Assembly (NCBI GenBank): GCA_003556605.1
Contig: PWQX01000051.1
Coordinates: 1-35,132, forward strand
Direction: 5' to 3'
DNA from: Spirochaetaceae bacterium
GTDB lineage: Bacteria > Spirochaetota > Spirochaetia > DSM-27196 > SLAA01
DNA: 35,132 nucleotides
Shown: piece by piece, positions 1 through 28,015 of the stretch
Position numbering within the stretch: the stretch's first letter is position 1
Layout: each line of letters opens with the position of its first letter
Notes under the pieces: model-generated
What the model was told of the DNA's origin: nothing
Database searches by the model: none
What the model saw: only the letters and a program-made list of their open reading frames with translations
Made by a program: the position numbers and the translations under genes

Positions 1-6
1 CACAAA

Positions 7-35
7 AAAACCGTCCCGGCTGGGACGGTTTTTTC
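7..35. terminator. Rho-independent terminator of an upstream gene
   Basis: An inverted repeat with arms 7-17 (core CCGTCCC) and 22-32 (core GGGACGG) encloses the four-base loop GGCT. It is followed by a run of T and preceded by a run of A, so it could stop transcription on either strand. The gene it serves lies outside the window on the left. The next plus-strand gene has its own promoter from 198, which fits this being an operon boundary. Confidence 0.9.
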
Positions 36-197
36 GGTTTCTTGCGAATCCCTACTCAACTCCCGCCGGGTGGGCCGGTGAGACGCGTAATAATGCTAAT
101 GCTGATTGCAATTGCAACCCGGGTGGAGATAGAGGGTGTGATACAACGACAGTTATGCCCTGGCATCGTGAGCAGACTCTCTCAGTTTTGCTCAAAG

Positions 198-226
198 TTG
201 TCAAGCGTGTTGCAATCAACTACAAT
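198..226 (+). promoter_or_regulatory. Sigma-70-type promoter of the gene at 238
   Basis: TTGTCA (198-203) and TACAAT (221-226) are separated by 17 bases, which is a near-consensus housekeeping promoter. The expected transcription start is about 232-234, only four to six bases before the ATG at 238. No Shine-Dalgarno sequence lies between. The in-frame TTG at 226 overlaps the -10 element and so is unlikely to be the start codon. Confidence 0.75.
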
Positions 227-237
227 TGAACACATAC

Positions 238-2001
238 ATGCAGCCACGACAGAGCGGTTTTGACAGATTGGTATCGGAGCTATCGCGCGATGAGCGCGTG
301 CGCATGCTTGAACGTATTCGCACCTCCGCGGCTATTGTCGAAGAGCCGCTGTCGCAGTTCCAGGAAGAGCCGAAGGTTGACCTATTAGCTGAGCTGCGAA
401 GATTGACCGTAATCCAGCGAGTGCTGCTACTGCTACGGTCGGTGTTCACCGGCAAGAACCGCGTTGAGGCACTTGAGCAACTGCTTATCAAAGATCTTGG
501 CCGCAGGATTCAACGCAGCGCGCCGGGATTCATCGATCTGCGCACCAACAGTTGCAAGGCGCTGCTATACGAACGCCTCGAGATGCTCAAAGGCTACGCC
601 CAGGTGTTTCGCAGACCGCTGGCACGTGTTCTTGGAGGGCCTGAGCTCTCATTTTACGCTTTTCTGTGCGGTTTCGAGCTGCCGGATCTTCATAACCAAC
701 TCGAAGAAGATACCGATCCGTTTAGGCTCGTCGCTGCGGAGCCCGACTTGGCTGAACCGGAGGTTCGCAGGCGGGTATTCGTGAATATGGAATACATCCT
801 TGAGGGAATGCCGGCTGACGGGCGACGCCGAATGTACAACAACGCACAAGCTCTGGAGAGCTTGTACGAGCTATCGCGTTATCCGTTCGAAGAGCTGCTG
901 GACAGTTTTCAGACCTCCCCCGAAGGCACCGTTGTAGATTGTCCGTTCGAGTACATCCGCGAGCCGCTGACCAAGCTTTGCGGCTTGATGCTGAGCATGG
1001 AGTTTTTCCCCTCCTCGCGCCTCGTTGAGGCGTTGCACCTGTATCTCAATCGAGATCGTCTGGATTGGGGCGCCGGGACCGCGCAGATGGAACACGAGCT
1101 GGCACGTCAGGTGCGCATTGCATCGGATGCGTTAAACGGCATTCGCAGCTTTACCGCCGAAGTCCCGTTGCCTCAGATTGTGCGTCTCATGCACGGAGAT
1201 ATCAACTTCACCCCTGCGCTCAGCTCCGGGGGCGAACAGTGGTTTGCGCGGGTGAAGCGGTTTTGGCATAAACGTATCGAGCGTCAGTACGACGCCTATC
1301 TGTTTACCGCCAAGCACAAGCAGCGCCGCGACCAAGCGAGACACCTTCTCGGCGTCGCGGTCGAACCGTTGAGCGAGTACTGTGCGTTTTCTCGCCGCAC
1401 GACACTTCGCGAGAACGGCTGGATGACCGGGCGTTTCGCGTTGTCGCTGGGCGTGATCCGGGCCTTCTCCGCCGGTCCGTTCCGCACACAGATGCACGCG
1501 CCGTTGAAGAATCTTCATATCGACGGCGAGTTCTACAAGAAAGAAAACCGCAACGAGTACACTCGCGCCTTTAACGCGTTAATCTCAATTGATTCACAGA
1601 TAGACGCGTTTCGCATACGCTTGTCCGAAACCGGCGAGTTCGGGCTGCATTTGAAGCGACTGGCGCCTGAATCGAACGCTAGCGGCGCGTATCATTCGGA
1701 ACTCGTTGAACTGGTCAATCGCGTGGATAGTGAGGCCCATCAGATGGTGCGCGAATATGTCGGAGCGCTCGACTCAATCGCCGAGGTGCTGAACGGCATT
1801 CTCTACGGCGAGGTCGGCGCGAAGTACGATACGCTTGCAAACCTTGGCCAGATCGGCGGTCGCAGTCATAAGCGCCTAATGGTACAGCTCGATACCAGCA
1901 TGAAATGGGCCCGCGATCTTGCCGATCTAATGCGGCAGATCATTCAACTCGAGGAAACTTCCACCCAGCTTGTCGGCGATGCCGAGCTCGATGCGTCGTG
2001 A
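238..2001 (+). CDS. Conserved hypothetical protein, probably spirochaete-specific
   Basis: This is a 587-residue protein that I do not recognise with confidence. It may belong to a spirochaete family of unknown function such as DUF5312, but that is a memory-based guess. It is predicted soluble, with no signal peptide or clear membrane segment. It is rich in charged amphipathic helices; the N-terminus has the helix-like stretch FDRLVSELSRDERVRML, and the last ~100 residues are also helical. No catalytic motif is visible. ATG 238 is chosen over the in-frame TTG at 226 because the TTG lies inside the -10 hexamer. There is no ribosome binding site, so translation may be leaderless. A separate promoter precedes the next gene, so the two are not necessarily one operon. 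Confidence 0.8.
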   Translation: MQPRQSGFDRLVSELSRDERVRMLERIRTSAAIVEEPLSQFQEEPKVDLLAELRRLTVIQRVLLLLRSVFTGKNRVEALEQLLIKDLGRRIQRSAPGFIDLRTNSCKALLYERLEMLKGYAQVFRRPLARVLGGPELSFYAFLCGFELPDLHNQLEEDTDPFRLVAAEPDLAEPEVRRRVFVNMEYILEGMPADGRRRMYNNAQALESLYELSRYPFEELLDSFQTSPEGTVVDCPFEYIREPLTKLCGLMLSMEFFPSSRLVEALHLYLNRDRLDWGAGTAQMEHELARQVRIASDALNGIRSFTAEVPLPQIVRLMHGDINFTPALSSGGEQWFARVKRFWHKRIERQYDAYLFTAKHKQRRDQARHLLGVAVEPLSEYCAFSRRTTLRENGWMTGRFALSLGVIRAFSAGPFRTQMHAPLKNLHIDGEFYKKENRNEYTRAFNALISIDSQIDAFRIRLSETGEFGLHLKRLAPESNASGAYHSELVELVNRVDSEAHQMVREYVGALDSIAEVLNGILYGEVGAKYDTLANLGQIGGRSHKRLMVQLDTSMKWARDLADLMRQIIQLEETSTQLVGDAELDAS

Positions 2002-2152: not shown

Positions 2153-4570
2153 ATGAGAAAACTAGAGTCACAAGATGCCAGGTATGTCGTCGATCCCCAT
2201 TCAATCACAAAGGCCGAGAAAAGTGACGAAGCTGCGTTTCGCGGAATAATAGGGCAAAAGCGTGCACTGCATGCCTTGGAGGTGGGTTTGCAGGTTCCCG
2301 GGCGCGGGTTCAACGTGTACGTTTCCGGGCCCCCAGGTATCGGGAAAATGACCTCAGTTCGCTCCTATCTGGAACGAATCGCCGAACAGCGCCCTACCCC
2401 GAGCGACCTGTGTTTCGTTCATAACCACAAGGAACCATACGAACCGAAGGCGATCATGTTGCCGGCCGGTTGCGGAAACGAGTTCAGAAAGGCGATGCAG
2501 AACATACAGAACTTCATCGAAGAGGACGTTTCCCGAATTTTCGAAAGCGATGAGTATAGAACGCAGCGAGAAAGTGCCATAGAAGAACTGAAAGGGCGGG
2601 GTCAGGGAGTTCAGGAGGAGATTAAGCAGAAGGCGCACGAGAAAGGATTTGTGCTCCAGCAGACCTTGATGGGTATGGCGCTTGTCCCCCTCAAGGACGG
2701 TGAACGGCTCAGCGATGAGGGGCTGCAGCAGTTGCCCGAGGAGGAGCGCGAGGAGATTAACCGCAGGCAGCAGGAATTGCAGCAGGAGATTCAGGACATT
2801 CAGCGCAAGTACCGCCGCATAAATCGCGCGGCGAAAGAGAAGGTCGAGAAGCTCGACCGCGAGATCGTGAAGAATAGGCTTACCGGGCCGGTTGACGATC
2901 TCAAAGAACAGTATCAGGGAAACGAGAAGGTCGCCGAATACCTAAACGCGATGATAAACGATGTGGTGGAGAATATCGATACGCTCAAGAACCTATCCCA
3001 GCAGAAACAGCAGAACGCTTCTGCACAGGAGCTGCAGCAGGCGGAAATGCTGAAGCAGCAGTTCTTTCGAAAGTACGATGTCAATGTGGCGGTCGACAAC
3101 CAGGGCCTCGATGGCGCCCCGGTCGTGCAAGAGATCAACCCAAACTACAACAATCTTGTAGGCCGTATTGAGAAAGAAATGCAAATGGGCGCGGTGAGTA
3201 CCGACTATACTCTCATACGGGCGGGCGCGCTACTGCGAGCAAACGGCGGGTTTCTGGTGCTCGCAATCGAGGATGTCCTTCGCAGCGTATACAGCTGGGA
3301 CGGGCTCAAACGAGCGCTGCGCAGCGAAGAAGTTCGTATCGAAGAGCTGCAGGAGCAGCTTGGACTCATGTCGATCAAGACATTGCGACCGGAGTCGGTG
3401 CCACTGGAGGTCAAGGTCATACTTGTCGGCCGACCGATCTTCTACCATCTGCTTCACACCTACGACGAGGACTTTCAAGAGCTCTTTCGAATTAAGGCTG
3501 ATTTCGACACTGAGATGGACGCCGGTGAACAGAACTTCAAGCACTTCGTGAGCTTCTTGAGCGCGCTCGCCGAAAAAGAGAACCTCAAGCCGCTACAGAA
3601 CACCGCCCTTGCCAAGGTGGTGGAACATGCTCTTCGCATGGCGGGACATAAGCACAAGCTGTCCACCGAGTTCGGAACAATTTCCGACTTGCTGAGAGAG
3701 TCGAGCTTCTGGGCCGCAAAGGAGAACGCGTCCGAGATTACCCACCGCCACGTGAGACGCGCGCTCGATGAGAAGACCTATCGGTCTAACCTCGTCAAGG
3801 AAAAGATCAACGAGTTTATCGCGAACGGCAGCATCTTGATCGATACGACTGCAACGGCAGTGGCTCAGGTCAACGGGCTCTCTGTTGTGGAGCTTGGCGA
3901 TTTTGCCTTTGGGCGGCCGAATCGCATTACTGCGACCGCGGGCCCCGGCCGCGACGGTGTGGTGGACATCGAACGAGAGGCGAAGCTCGGCGGCCCAGTT
4001 CACAACAAGGGGGTTATGATTCTCACCGGTTTCTTATCGAACACCTTTGCAAGGCAAGAGCTTCTCACAATTTCCGCGCGTGTGGTTTTCGAGCAGAGCT
4101 ACCAGGGTGTTGAAGGCGATAGCGCCTCCTCGACCGAACTGTACGCGCTGCTGTCGGCGCTCTCGCAGATCCCGCTTACCCAGGGAATCGCGGTCACCGG
4201 ATCGGTTAATCAACACGGCAGGGTGCAGGCGGTCGGCGGTATAAACCAGAAGGTCGAGGGATTCTACGAAGTGTGCAAAATCGGAGGGCTTACCGGGCAG
4301 CAGGGAGTGCTAATTCCCGACGGAAACGTACAGAACCTCATGCTCAGAGAAGACGTCGTGGAGGCGATAGATAAGGGGAGTTTCAACCTCTGGAGTGTGT
4401 CCAGCATCAGCGAAGGAATCGAGGTCCTCACAGGAGAGCCCGCCGGTGAGCTGCAAGCTGACGGTACTTTTCCGGCCGGGACGCTCTTCCGGAAAGTGGC
4501 CGATACACTCCAAGCCTACCGGCAGGGACTCAAAGAATGGCAAGGAGATCTTAGCGCCGGGAACCGCTGA
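2153..4570 (+). CDS. Lon-like ATP-dependent protease (LonB/YcbZ-type)
   Basis: This is an 805-residue protein of the cytosolic Lon-like S16 protease family (AAA_32 plus Lon_C type). An N-terminal ATPase segment carries a P-loop at residues 59-67 (GPPGIGKMT), with Met66 where Ser/Thr is usual. A long, Glu/Gln-rich coiled-coil region follows at about residues 150-300. The C-terminal protease domain has the Ser-Lys dyad: Ser657 in GDSAS and Lys700 in GGINQK. These are 43 residues apart, the same spacing as the E. coli Lon dyad S679/K722. The start at 2153 has a good GGAG. The likely role is protein quality control. It differs from housekeeping Lon by lacking the LAN substrate-binding domain. The GGFLVLAIEDVL segment sits where a Walker B would be but is atypical. 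Confidence 0.9.
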   Translation: MRKLESQDARYVVDPHSITKAEKSDEAAFRGIIGQKRALHALEVGLQVPGRGFNVYVSGPPGIGKMTSVRSYLERIAEQRPTPSDLCFVHNHKEPYEPKAIMLPAGCGNEFRKAMQNIQNFIEEDVSRIFESDEYRTQRESAIEELKGRGQGVQEEIKQKAHEKGFVLQQTLMGMALVPLKDGERLSDEGLQQLPEEEREEINRRQQELQQEIQDIQRKYRRINRAAKEKVEKLDREIVKNRLTGPVDDLKEQYQGNEKVAEYLNAMINDVVENIDTLKNLSQQKQQNASAQELQQAEMLKQQFFRKYDVNVAVDNQGLDGAPVVQEINPNYNNLVGRIEKEMQMGAVSTDYTLIRAGALLRANGGFLVLAIEDVLRSVYSWDGLKRALRSEEVRIEELQEQLGLMSIKTLRPESVPLEVKVILVGRPIFYHLLHTYDEDFQELFRIKADFDTEMDAGEQNFKHFVSFLSALAEKENLKPLQNTALAKVVEHALRMAGHKHKLSTEFGTISDLLRESSFWAAKENASEITHRHVRRALDEKTYRSNLVKEKINEFIANGSILIDTTATAVAQVNGLSVVELGDFAFGRPNRITATAGPGRDGVVDIEREAKLGGPVHNKGVMILTGFLSNTFARQELLTISARVVFEQSYQGVEGDSASSTELYALLSALSQIPLTQGIAVTGSVNQHGRVQAVGGINQKVEGFYEVCKIGGLTGQQGVLIPDGNVQNLMLREDVVEAIDKGSFNLWSVSSISEGIEVLTGEPAGELQADGTFPAGTLFRKVADTLQAYRQGLKEWQGDLSAGNR

Positions 4571-4691: not shown

Positions 4692-4720
4692 TTGACGGTG
4701 CGTGTGACACCCTGTATTAT
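4692..4720 (+). promoter_or_regulatory. Promoter of pgeF
   Basis: TTGACG (4692-4697) and TATTAT (4715-4720) are exactly 17 bases apart, which is close to consensus. Only ten bases separate the -10 element from the ATG at 4731. The transcript should therefore start within about three to four bases of the start codon. There is no Shine-Dalgarno sequence. Confidence 0.75.
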
Positions 4721-16076: not shown

Positions 16077-16105
16077 ATGGAACCATACGTTGCTGCGGCT
16101 GTCAA
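16077..16105 (-). promoter_or_regulatory. Probable tex promoter
   Basis: On the minus strand a perfect TTGACA (plus positions 16100-16105) is followed 17 bases later by TTCCAT (16077-16082). The latter is a weak -10, helped by an upstream TG-n extension. Eleven bases separate it from the tex ATG, the same geometry as two other promoters in the window. Confidence 0.5.
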
Positions 16106-25985: not shown

Positions 25986-26030
25986 ATACGCATAATGATG
26001 ATTTGACAGCCGTCGCTATTTGCGTATAAG
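25986..26030 (+). promoter_or_regulatory. spoVG promoter bracketed by an inverted repeat
   Basis: TTGACA (26003-26008) and TATAAG (26025-26030) are 16 bases apart, giving a strong promoter. ATACGCA (25986-25992) and TGCGTAT (26021-26027) form a seven-base inverted repeat. One arm is upstream of the -35 and the other overlaps the -10, as expected for a repressor or looping operator. The transcript should start near 26037. Confidence 0.7.
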
Positions 26031-26041
26031 TTTCAGTTAAT

Positions 26042-26101
26042 ATGGAGGATCTGTTGTTTTCGGCCCAAGCACGAAAAGGCGAAGCGCAGGGTTCCGTGTA
26101 G
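26042..26101 (+). CDS. Possible 19-codon leader ORF upstream of spoVG
   Basis: An ATG at 26042 lies 11 bases after the spoVG -10 hexamer and opens a frame encoding [19 protein letters not shown] before a TAG. There is no Shine-Dalgarno sequence, so it would be translated, if at all, as a near-leaderless message. It may be a regulatory upstream ORF or simply chance. It is supported only by its position. Confidence 0.3.
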
Positions 26102-26562: not shown

Positions 26563-26595
26563 CGTACCCGCGCACGTTAGCACACGATGCGAGAT

Positions 26596-26667
26596 TGGGA
26601 CGTCGGCAAGCGGTAAGCCACCGGGTTTTGATCCCGGCATTCGCAGGTTCGAATCCTGCCGTCCCAG
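26596..26667 (+). tRNA. tRNA-Gln (anticodon UUG)
   Basis: The acceptor arms TGGGACG (26596-26602) and CGTCCCA (26660-26666) pair fully, with discriminator G26667. The anticodon stem CCGGG/CCCGG encloses the loop TTTTGAT, giving anticodon UUG for CAA and CAG. The T arm GCAGG-TTCGAAT-CCTGC is canonical. The 3' CCA is not encoded. Confidence 0.97.
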
Positions 26668-26824
26668 AACAGAAGGCCGCGCTCCCGGGTGGACGTCGAA
26701 TCGGGTGTCGCCGGCCGCGTTACCGCGCTGCAGCCTTAAACGGCCGCCGGATGTCGGGCATCAATACAATAGCTTCGAAACATGTCCGCGCTTACGCATC
26801 ACCATAGCCGAACATGTCATGGTG

Positions 26825-28015
26825 TTAGGCGTTGAACCCCGGGGCGGTTTCGTCGTCGACCACGATGTCAAGCACTGCGGGTACGTCGGCTGCGTTGGCT
26901 TCACGTGCGCGTTCTAAAGCGGGCTGCAGCTCGTGAGGCTTACCCACGCGTAGTCCAACACAACCCGATGCCTCGGCCACGGCGGCGAAATCGGGTTGGA
27001 CACTGAACTCGCTCGCGATGTAGCGGCCGTTGTTGCGGCGCTGATGGTATTTGATCCACCCGAGAGCCTTATTGTTCAGTACAAGATAAGTAATCCCAAG
27101 GCGGTACTGCGCGGCGGTGGTTAGCTCGCGCATGTACATTCGGAACGCGCCGTCTCCACTGATGCAGACCACAGTCTCCTCAGGTCGAGCGAGCTTGGCG
27201 CCGACAGCGCCTGCGACCCCTGCGCCCATGCATGTCTGAGCCCCAGGTGGTACACAACCGTTGACCGGTGTACGAAAGTACGGCGAGTAGTACGACCACA
27301 AGTCTTGACTGCCGTTTTCGTTAAGCAATAGCGCCTCCAATAGCGCCTCGGGACCGAATACCTGCCGGTATTTCGCCGGTACCCCCTTAGTTTTTACGCG
27401 CTCGTAACCGCGTGGGCACTCGTGTTCTACCTCTCTTACGTAGGCGCGCTTGGTTTCGGCAATCTCGCTCGCTCGCCGGACGTGCTGCTGTGAGCTGGGC
27501 CGCGCAAGCGCGAGGATGTCGGTGAGAGCGGCGCGGACGTCGGCGACGACCCCGATGTCTGGTATCCAATTTCGCCCAAAGGCGGCAGCGTCGATGTCAA
27601 TCTGTACGATTCTGGCACCCTCAGGACGGTACTTCCATGCCCCGGTCTCGAAGTGGTCATTGCGGCTGCCAAGGATCAGAAGCAGGTCTGCGTCAAGAAA
27701 TGTCTCCCGGCCCACGCGGGTGAAGTAAAGTCCGGTCGAACCGAGCGCCAGCGGGTGGCGCTCATCGATACTGCCGCGTCCTGAGGCGGTGGTCAGCACC
27801 GGAATGTGAAGCTCATCGGCAAGGCGGCGTAGTTCTTCGAATGCGCCTGACCACACCGTGCCGCCGCTCTGCTCGCGGGCATGTACGGCCTCTATTGTGG
27901 AACTGTCGTACAGTGCATCGTACAAAAGCTTGGGGTATCCGGGCATTCCGAAAACGTACTCAACGCCCTCGGCGGCAAGAGCTTCTACAACAACTTGCCA
28001 TGCCGTGTTCTCCAT
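26825..28015 (-). pseudogene. Acetolactate-synthase-like TPP enzyme missing most of the PYR domain
   Basis: This is an open frame of 396 residues, against about 540-590 for this TPP-enzyme family. Residues 1-50 match the start of the PYR domain (VFGMPGYPKLLYDALYD) and keep the catalytic Glu48 in HAREQSGG. The sequence then jumps at about residues 51-54 straight into the central domain (VWSGAFEELRRLADELHIPV). About 135-150 residues of PYR core are absent. The central domain and the C-terminal PP domain look intact, with the TPP motif starting at GDG (287-289) and ending at Asn314-Asn315. The frame is open throughout and GGAGG precedes ATG 28015 by seven bases. It is probably a decayed gene with an in-frame deletion, or an assembly error; a functional short enzyme is less likely. 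It is the only minus-strand gene in the right half of the window. Confidence 0.75.

Follow-up and report, generated by a model that had tools for sequence, protein, structure and literature searches.

The DUF5312 gene at the beginning of a spirochaete contig is very probably near-leaderless: it would be transcribed from a normal sigma70-type promoter, be translated without a Shine-Dalgarno (SD) sequence, and belong to a set of perhaps 4–5% of the genes of its genome having the same build, with an arrangement retained throughout the class Spirochaetia. In the proposed mechanism, transcription would start about 4 bases (0–6) ahead of the ATG, leaving a leader too short for an SD sequence, and ribosomes would initiate in an SD-independent manner at a 5′-terminal or near-terminal AUG, as they do on leaderless mRNAs. 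The DNA analysed (the window, 35,132 nt) is the whole of contig C60 of a Spirochaetales-type draft genome of 3.88 Mb in 296 contigs; positions 1–121 repeat the end of contig C168 without a mismatch, so that C168 is probably the contig adjoining DUF5312 on its upstream side.

The DUF5312 start site and its promoter

The DUF5312 gene (PF17239) occupies 238..2001 of the forward strand and encodes a protein of 587 amino acids, which matches the profile with 379 bits against a curated cut-off of 25 (E 3.8e-113), over profile positions 2–542 of 553. Its promoter, on the same strand, consists of a −35 hexamer TTGTCA (198..203) and, 17 nt further on, a −10 hexamer TACAAT (221..226), followed by an 11-nt stretch, TGAACACATAC (227..237), and then by the ATG. 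The initial annotation had described this layout, and the lack of an SD sequence, between 198 and 240; on checking the sequence, the description is exact, and the SD duplex energy at this AUG is −0.9 kcal, a value that indicates no SD sequence.

Regarding the start of transcription, position 8 downstream of the −10 hexamer is preferentially A in the leadered promoters of this genome; because of this preference, the 5′ end of the DUF5312 mRNA is predicted at about 234, with the 4-nt leader ATAC, in line with the 4–6 bases that had been expected. The predicted leader is below 10 nt, and the gene stands outside the strictly leaderless class, in which the −10 ends 6–8 nt before the ATG: at 11, its spacing exceeds the commonest one, which is a point against the main reading and the reason why a short leader is predicted instead of a truly leaderless 5′ end. 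By the same preference, the commonest spacing, 7, would make the A of the ATG the first transcribed base. Among the 9–11 nt promoters of this genome, purines at position 8 seem scarcer than in leadered ones (9/29, a small sample, versus ∼58%), a bias that might push initiation onto the ATG.

As for the start codon, ATG 238 is the sole plausible candidate, since the conservation of the protein begins at residue 8 counted from it and the lone in-frame alternative upstream, TTG 226, falls partly within the −10 hexamer. In-frame TTG and GTG codons do occur downstream of 238, and the gene starts of this genome are predictions, so that the protein could begin at a later codon behind an ordinary leader; this is extremely unlikely, because the orthologues align from residue 8 onward (F8, D9, L11) and the next in-frame candidates fall within the conserved block.

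It is also very unlikely that the two hexamers only look like a promoter because they are AT-rich, or serve as a secondary one, and that the main transcript comes from farther upstream with a leader lacking an SD sequence and translated with the help of ribosomal protein S1. Initiation of this type on leadered mRNAs exists in bacteria (PMC5397173), but a scan of window positions 1–600 found no promoter-like site besides the one at 198–226, and a terminator-like hairpin (5..34, forward strand), found by sequence scan, sets the gene apart from the DNA upstream.

The protein is predicted to be all-helical (mean pLDDT 83.6); no relative was found among PDB sequences (best E 0.47), nor was a confident structural match found for the predicted fold. 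Its nearest named relatives are metagenome-assembled Spirochaetaceae and Spirochaetales, and the other named ones are Spirochaetales, Spirochaetaceae and Treponema records.

Three other starts of the window had been listed as sharing this spacing, and one of them stands. The pgeF gene (PF02578; 4731..5525, forward strand), identified by its profile match, has a −35 hexamer TTGACG (4692..4697) and, 17 nt further on, a −10 hexamer TATTAT (4715..4720) ending 10 nt ahead of the ATG; a like arrangement, TTGACC-17-TAnnnT with the start 9–12 nt downstream, is found at six orthologue loci (L179, L180, L181, L182, L193, and L229). The site ahead of tex (TTGACA-17-TTCCAT, 16077..16105, reverse strand) also lies 11 nt from its ATG, and it was rejected as a firm case because TTCCAT matches TATAAT at just 3/6 positions. 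A mini-ORF before spoVG, with TTGACA-16-TATAAG 11 nt ahead of its ATG at 26042 (26003..26041, forward strand), was rejected as well, since spoVG orthologues elsewhere have ordinary SD leaders and no mini-ORF; the site is probably the ordinary spoVG promoter. The normal leaders attributed to lon, rplU (true start 21826), and rplY (28240) were borne out, all three being of the SD type.

Some further features of the window were recorded. The LonB-like protease at 2153–4567 is 73% identical to the copies of family f7 and 61% to that of G042, with same-genus matches of ∼37% only; the second copy of its own genome (C107) is of the 37% type, which suggests a patchy or transferred paralogue. The acetolactate-synthase-like ORF at 26825–28015 (reverse strand) matches only positions ∼209–537 of TIGR00118, its N-terminal part being absent, and a tRNA-Gln (TTG) gene lies at 26595–26668.

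Short promoter-to-ATG spacings across the genome

The spacing was surveyed in 1.58 Mb (41%) of the draft genome, whose contamination is estimated at 4.4%; within this portion 1352 genes were called with a home-made codon-based caller. Promoters were scored ahead of in-frame ATGs having non-coding upstream DNA; the −35 and −10 matrices were approximate E. coli values, and the peak was identical at score thresholds of 6, 8, 9, and 9.5. Sigma70-like promoters ended 6–8 nt before 44 in-frame ATGs, versus 4.9 (sd 2.1, maximum 9) in 40 dinucleotide-preserving shuffles, and 9–11 nt before 33, versus 4.8 (sd 2.2, maximum 12); the background estimated from more distant positions of the same data was ∼15 per three positions. 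Out-of-frame ATGs were little above their background of ∼4, with 8 cases at 6–8 nt and 6 at 9–11 nt, and GTG and TTG starts in the same 1.58 Mb had no excess at 6–11 nt. After background subtraction, the near-leaderless class would amount to the fraction of genes given above. The candidates with recognisable conserved N-termini include genes that we take, by sequence recognition, to be metG, pyrG, coaD, topA, and nrdR.

The SD sequence is lost in the same class. With the anti-SD taken as standard (the 16S 3′-end pattern was searched in the draft genome and not found), candidate leaderless starts have a median pairing energy of −1.95 kcal, close to that of random DNA (−2.4 kcal), and 4% of them reach −6 kcal or lower; the other ATG starts have a median of −6.3 kcal and 52% reach that value (p 1.4e-19). 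Sorted by the distance from the −10 to the ATG, the fraction of starts with an SD sequence is 3% at 6–8 nt, 7% at 9–11 nt, 0/5 at 12–14 nt, 50% at 15–19 nt, 72% at 20–29 nt, 66% at 30–39 nt, and 74% at 40–59 nt. The 9–11 nt class, to which DUF5312 belongs, behaves like the strictly leaderless one, since its SD fraction is similarly low. The commonest spacing is 6–8 nt, corresponding to true leaderless mRNAs, and the 10–11 nt spacing of the initial annotation belongs to another group, which is larger than usual in this genus. The genome-wide scan against shuffled DNA, which the initial annotation had put forward as a check, was positive, for in-frame ATGs only and with SD loss alongside.

The tie of the excess to in-frame ATGs and to SD absence speaks against a main transcript from farther upstream, and it bears on another reading, in which the short spacing is mere compaction of promoter and gene, the position being kept to spare a regulator site and the mode of translation being unaffected. 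The hexamers and their spacing are indeed better conserved than the 5–12 nt behind them, as such compaction would have it; the reading is nonetheless unlikely, because the SD sequence is lost in exactly the 6–11 nt class and GTG and TTG starts show no excess there, two observations which argue that translation itself is affected. The restriction to ATG fits initiation on leaderless mRNAs, since E. coli uses non-AUG leaderless starts with much lower efficiency (PMC9031893).

Conservation in the class Spirochaetia

Among 62 DUF5312 loci (named loci plus the window), the best promoter lies 5–12 nt ahead of the start codon in 44, compared with 9.9% in shuffled sequence (p 2e-30, a value that does not refer to independent events, the orthologues being related by descent). 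Some of the misses come from the script's choice of start codon or promoter (e.g., L191 and L198); L201 and L202 look leadered, their start being ∼29 nt away with an SD-like sequence. The usual promoter is TTGACC-17/18-TAnnnT, which is also found, as regards the −35 box, in most other families, and the own-genus −35 is TTGTCA, shared by three orthologues of the genus. The distance from the −10 to the start is 11 nt in the four genus members, 8 nt in the sister genus, and 6–7 nt in Treponema-type genomes, and many orthologues from other families have 6–8 nt. Many of these proteins share just 26–40% identity; over such divergence the arrangement is kept across the class.

In the 5–12 nt class, the spacing between the −35 and −10 is 17 or 18 in 46/49 orthologues despite a variable spacer sequence, a count taken from a broader scoring in which several loci were read in the wrong orientation. 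Such constancy goes against chance look-alikes of a promoter. In favour of transcription from upstream, TTGTCAAG-like elements recur in several DUF5312 promoters, ∼10–35 nt upstream of the −35 hexamer TTGACC (L151, L158, L161, L163, L165, and L221); they are possibly operators or tandem promoters.

Exact pattern counts extend the near-leaderless build beyond this gene, with a similar excess of TTGACNN{17,18}TANNNT-N-ATG in almost every one of the 61 Spirochaetia genomes. Leaving out three of low completeness, the 58 genomes total 2611 cases at N6–8, 1412 at N9–11, and 860 at N21–23, versus 202, 223, and 234 with reversed-pattern controls. In the own genus there are 0.74 cases at 9–11 nt for each one at 6–8 nt, a ratio that reaches 0.79 in family f3 and is 0.69 in f7; it ranges from 0.24 to 0.46 in f2, f4, f6, and f8 (0.37 in f4, 0.24 in f6). 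The difference between the genus and these four families together has p 2.5e-6, the families having been picked after viewing the data, and the ratios hint at a lineage-specific choice of start point or tolerated leader length. In the DNA flanking the DUF5312 loci, the peak recurs at 6–12 nt for in-frame ATGs and is absent for out-of-frame ones, with DUF5312 itself supplying many of the cases. As for other genes, secA (own genome and L187, L196, and L232), ispE (11–12 nt in L206, L209, L212, L220, and L240), and a ParA-like gene look leaderless in more than one family.

Relation to known systems and meaning

In the leaderless mRNAs of Mycobacterium and Deinococcus the promoter abuts the start codon and the SD sequence is absent, and DUF5312 is alike in both respects. 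On leaderless mRNAs, 70S ribosomes bind an AUG that is 5′-terminal or close to it, and lengthening of the 5′ end is reported to reduce translation in some species (PMC9031893), which likewise counts against the main reading for a gene with a 4-nt leader. GTG starts are used efficiently in the leaderless mRNAs of M. smegmatis (PMC9031893), whereas the excess in this genome is confined to ATG.

The kind of gene is already known in the phylum. Zheng et al. (2011) described leaderless genes of bacteria, marked by a TANNNT ∼12 bp ahead of the start codon, and predicted them in 6/18 Spirochaetes genomes, with a mean of 3.9% (PMC3160421); DUF5312 resembles them in the −10-like signal just before the ATG and the lack of an SD sequence, but its −10 begins 17 nt upstream, with a predicted leader of 4 nt, and here the arrangement of one gene is followed over a class. 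In Leptospira interrogans, of the same phylum, dRNA-seq mapped ∼440 mRNAs with a 5′UTR <10 nt, half of them <2 nt (PMC5243855); those 5′ ends were measured, whereas the DUF5312 start, in Spirochaetia, is predicted from sequence. The suggestion that a distinct leaderless gene set exists in this lineage largely holds, but such a set is not peculiar to the lineage. The literature searches turned up neither a map of leaderless transcripts in Treponema nor a paper on DUF5312, and papers beyond these searches may exist. What appears to be new is, for one uncharacterised gene, conservation over a whole class, together with the enlarged 9–11 nt class in the genus.

A broader reading can be offered tentatively: leaderlessness of DUF5312, as of SecA, IspE, the ParA-like protein and others, may be an ancestral, selected feature of Spirochaetia, the cohort being kept off SD-dependent initiation so that its translation responds differently to the state of the ribosome; the variant with a short leader of 3–5 nt would have been enlarged in some families.

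In conclusion, counts of leaderless translation are generally made genome by genome; the present case is a single uncharacterised gene that keeps the arrangement through deep divergence, although both its promoter hexamers and the precise spacing vary. DUF5312 thus lends itself to testing, in a natural setting, whether leaderless starts are under selection or incidental, and the case corrects how start sites are predicted and annotated in a class in which few transcriptomes have been mapped.
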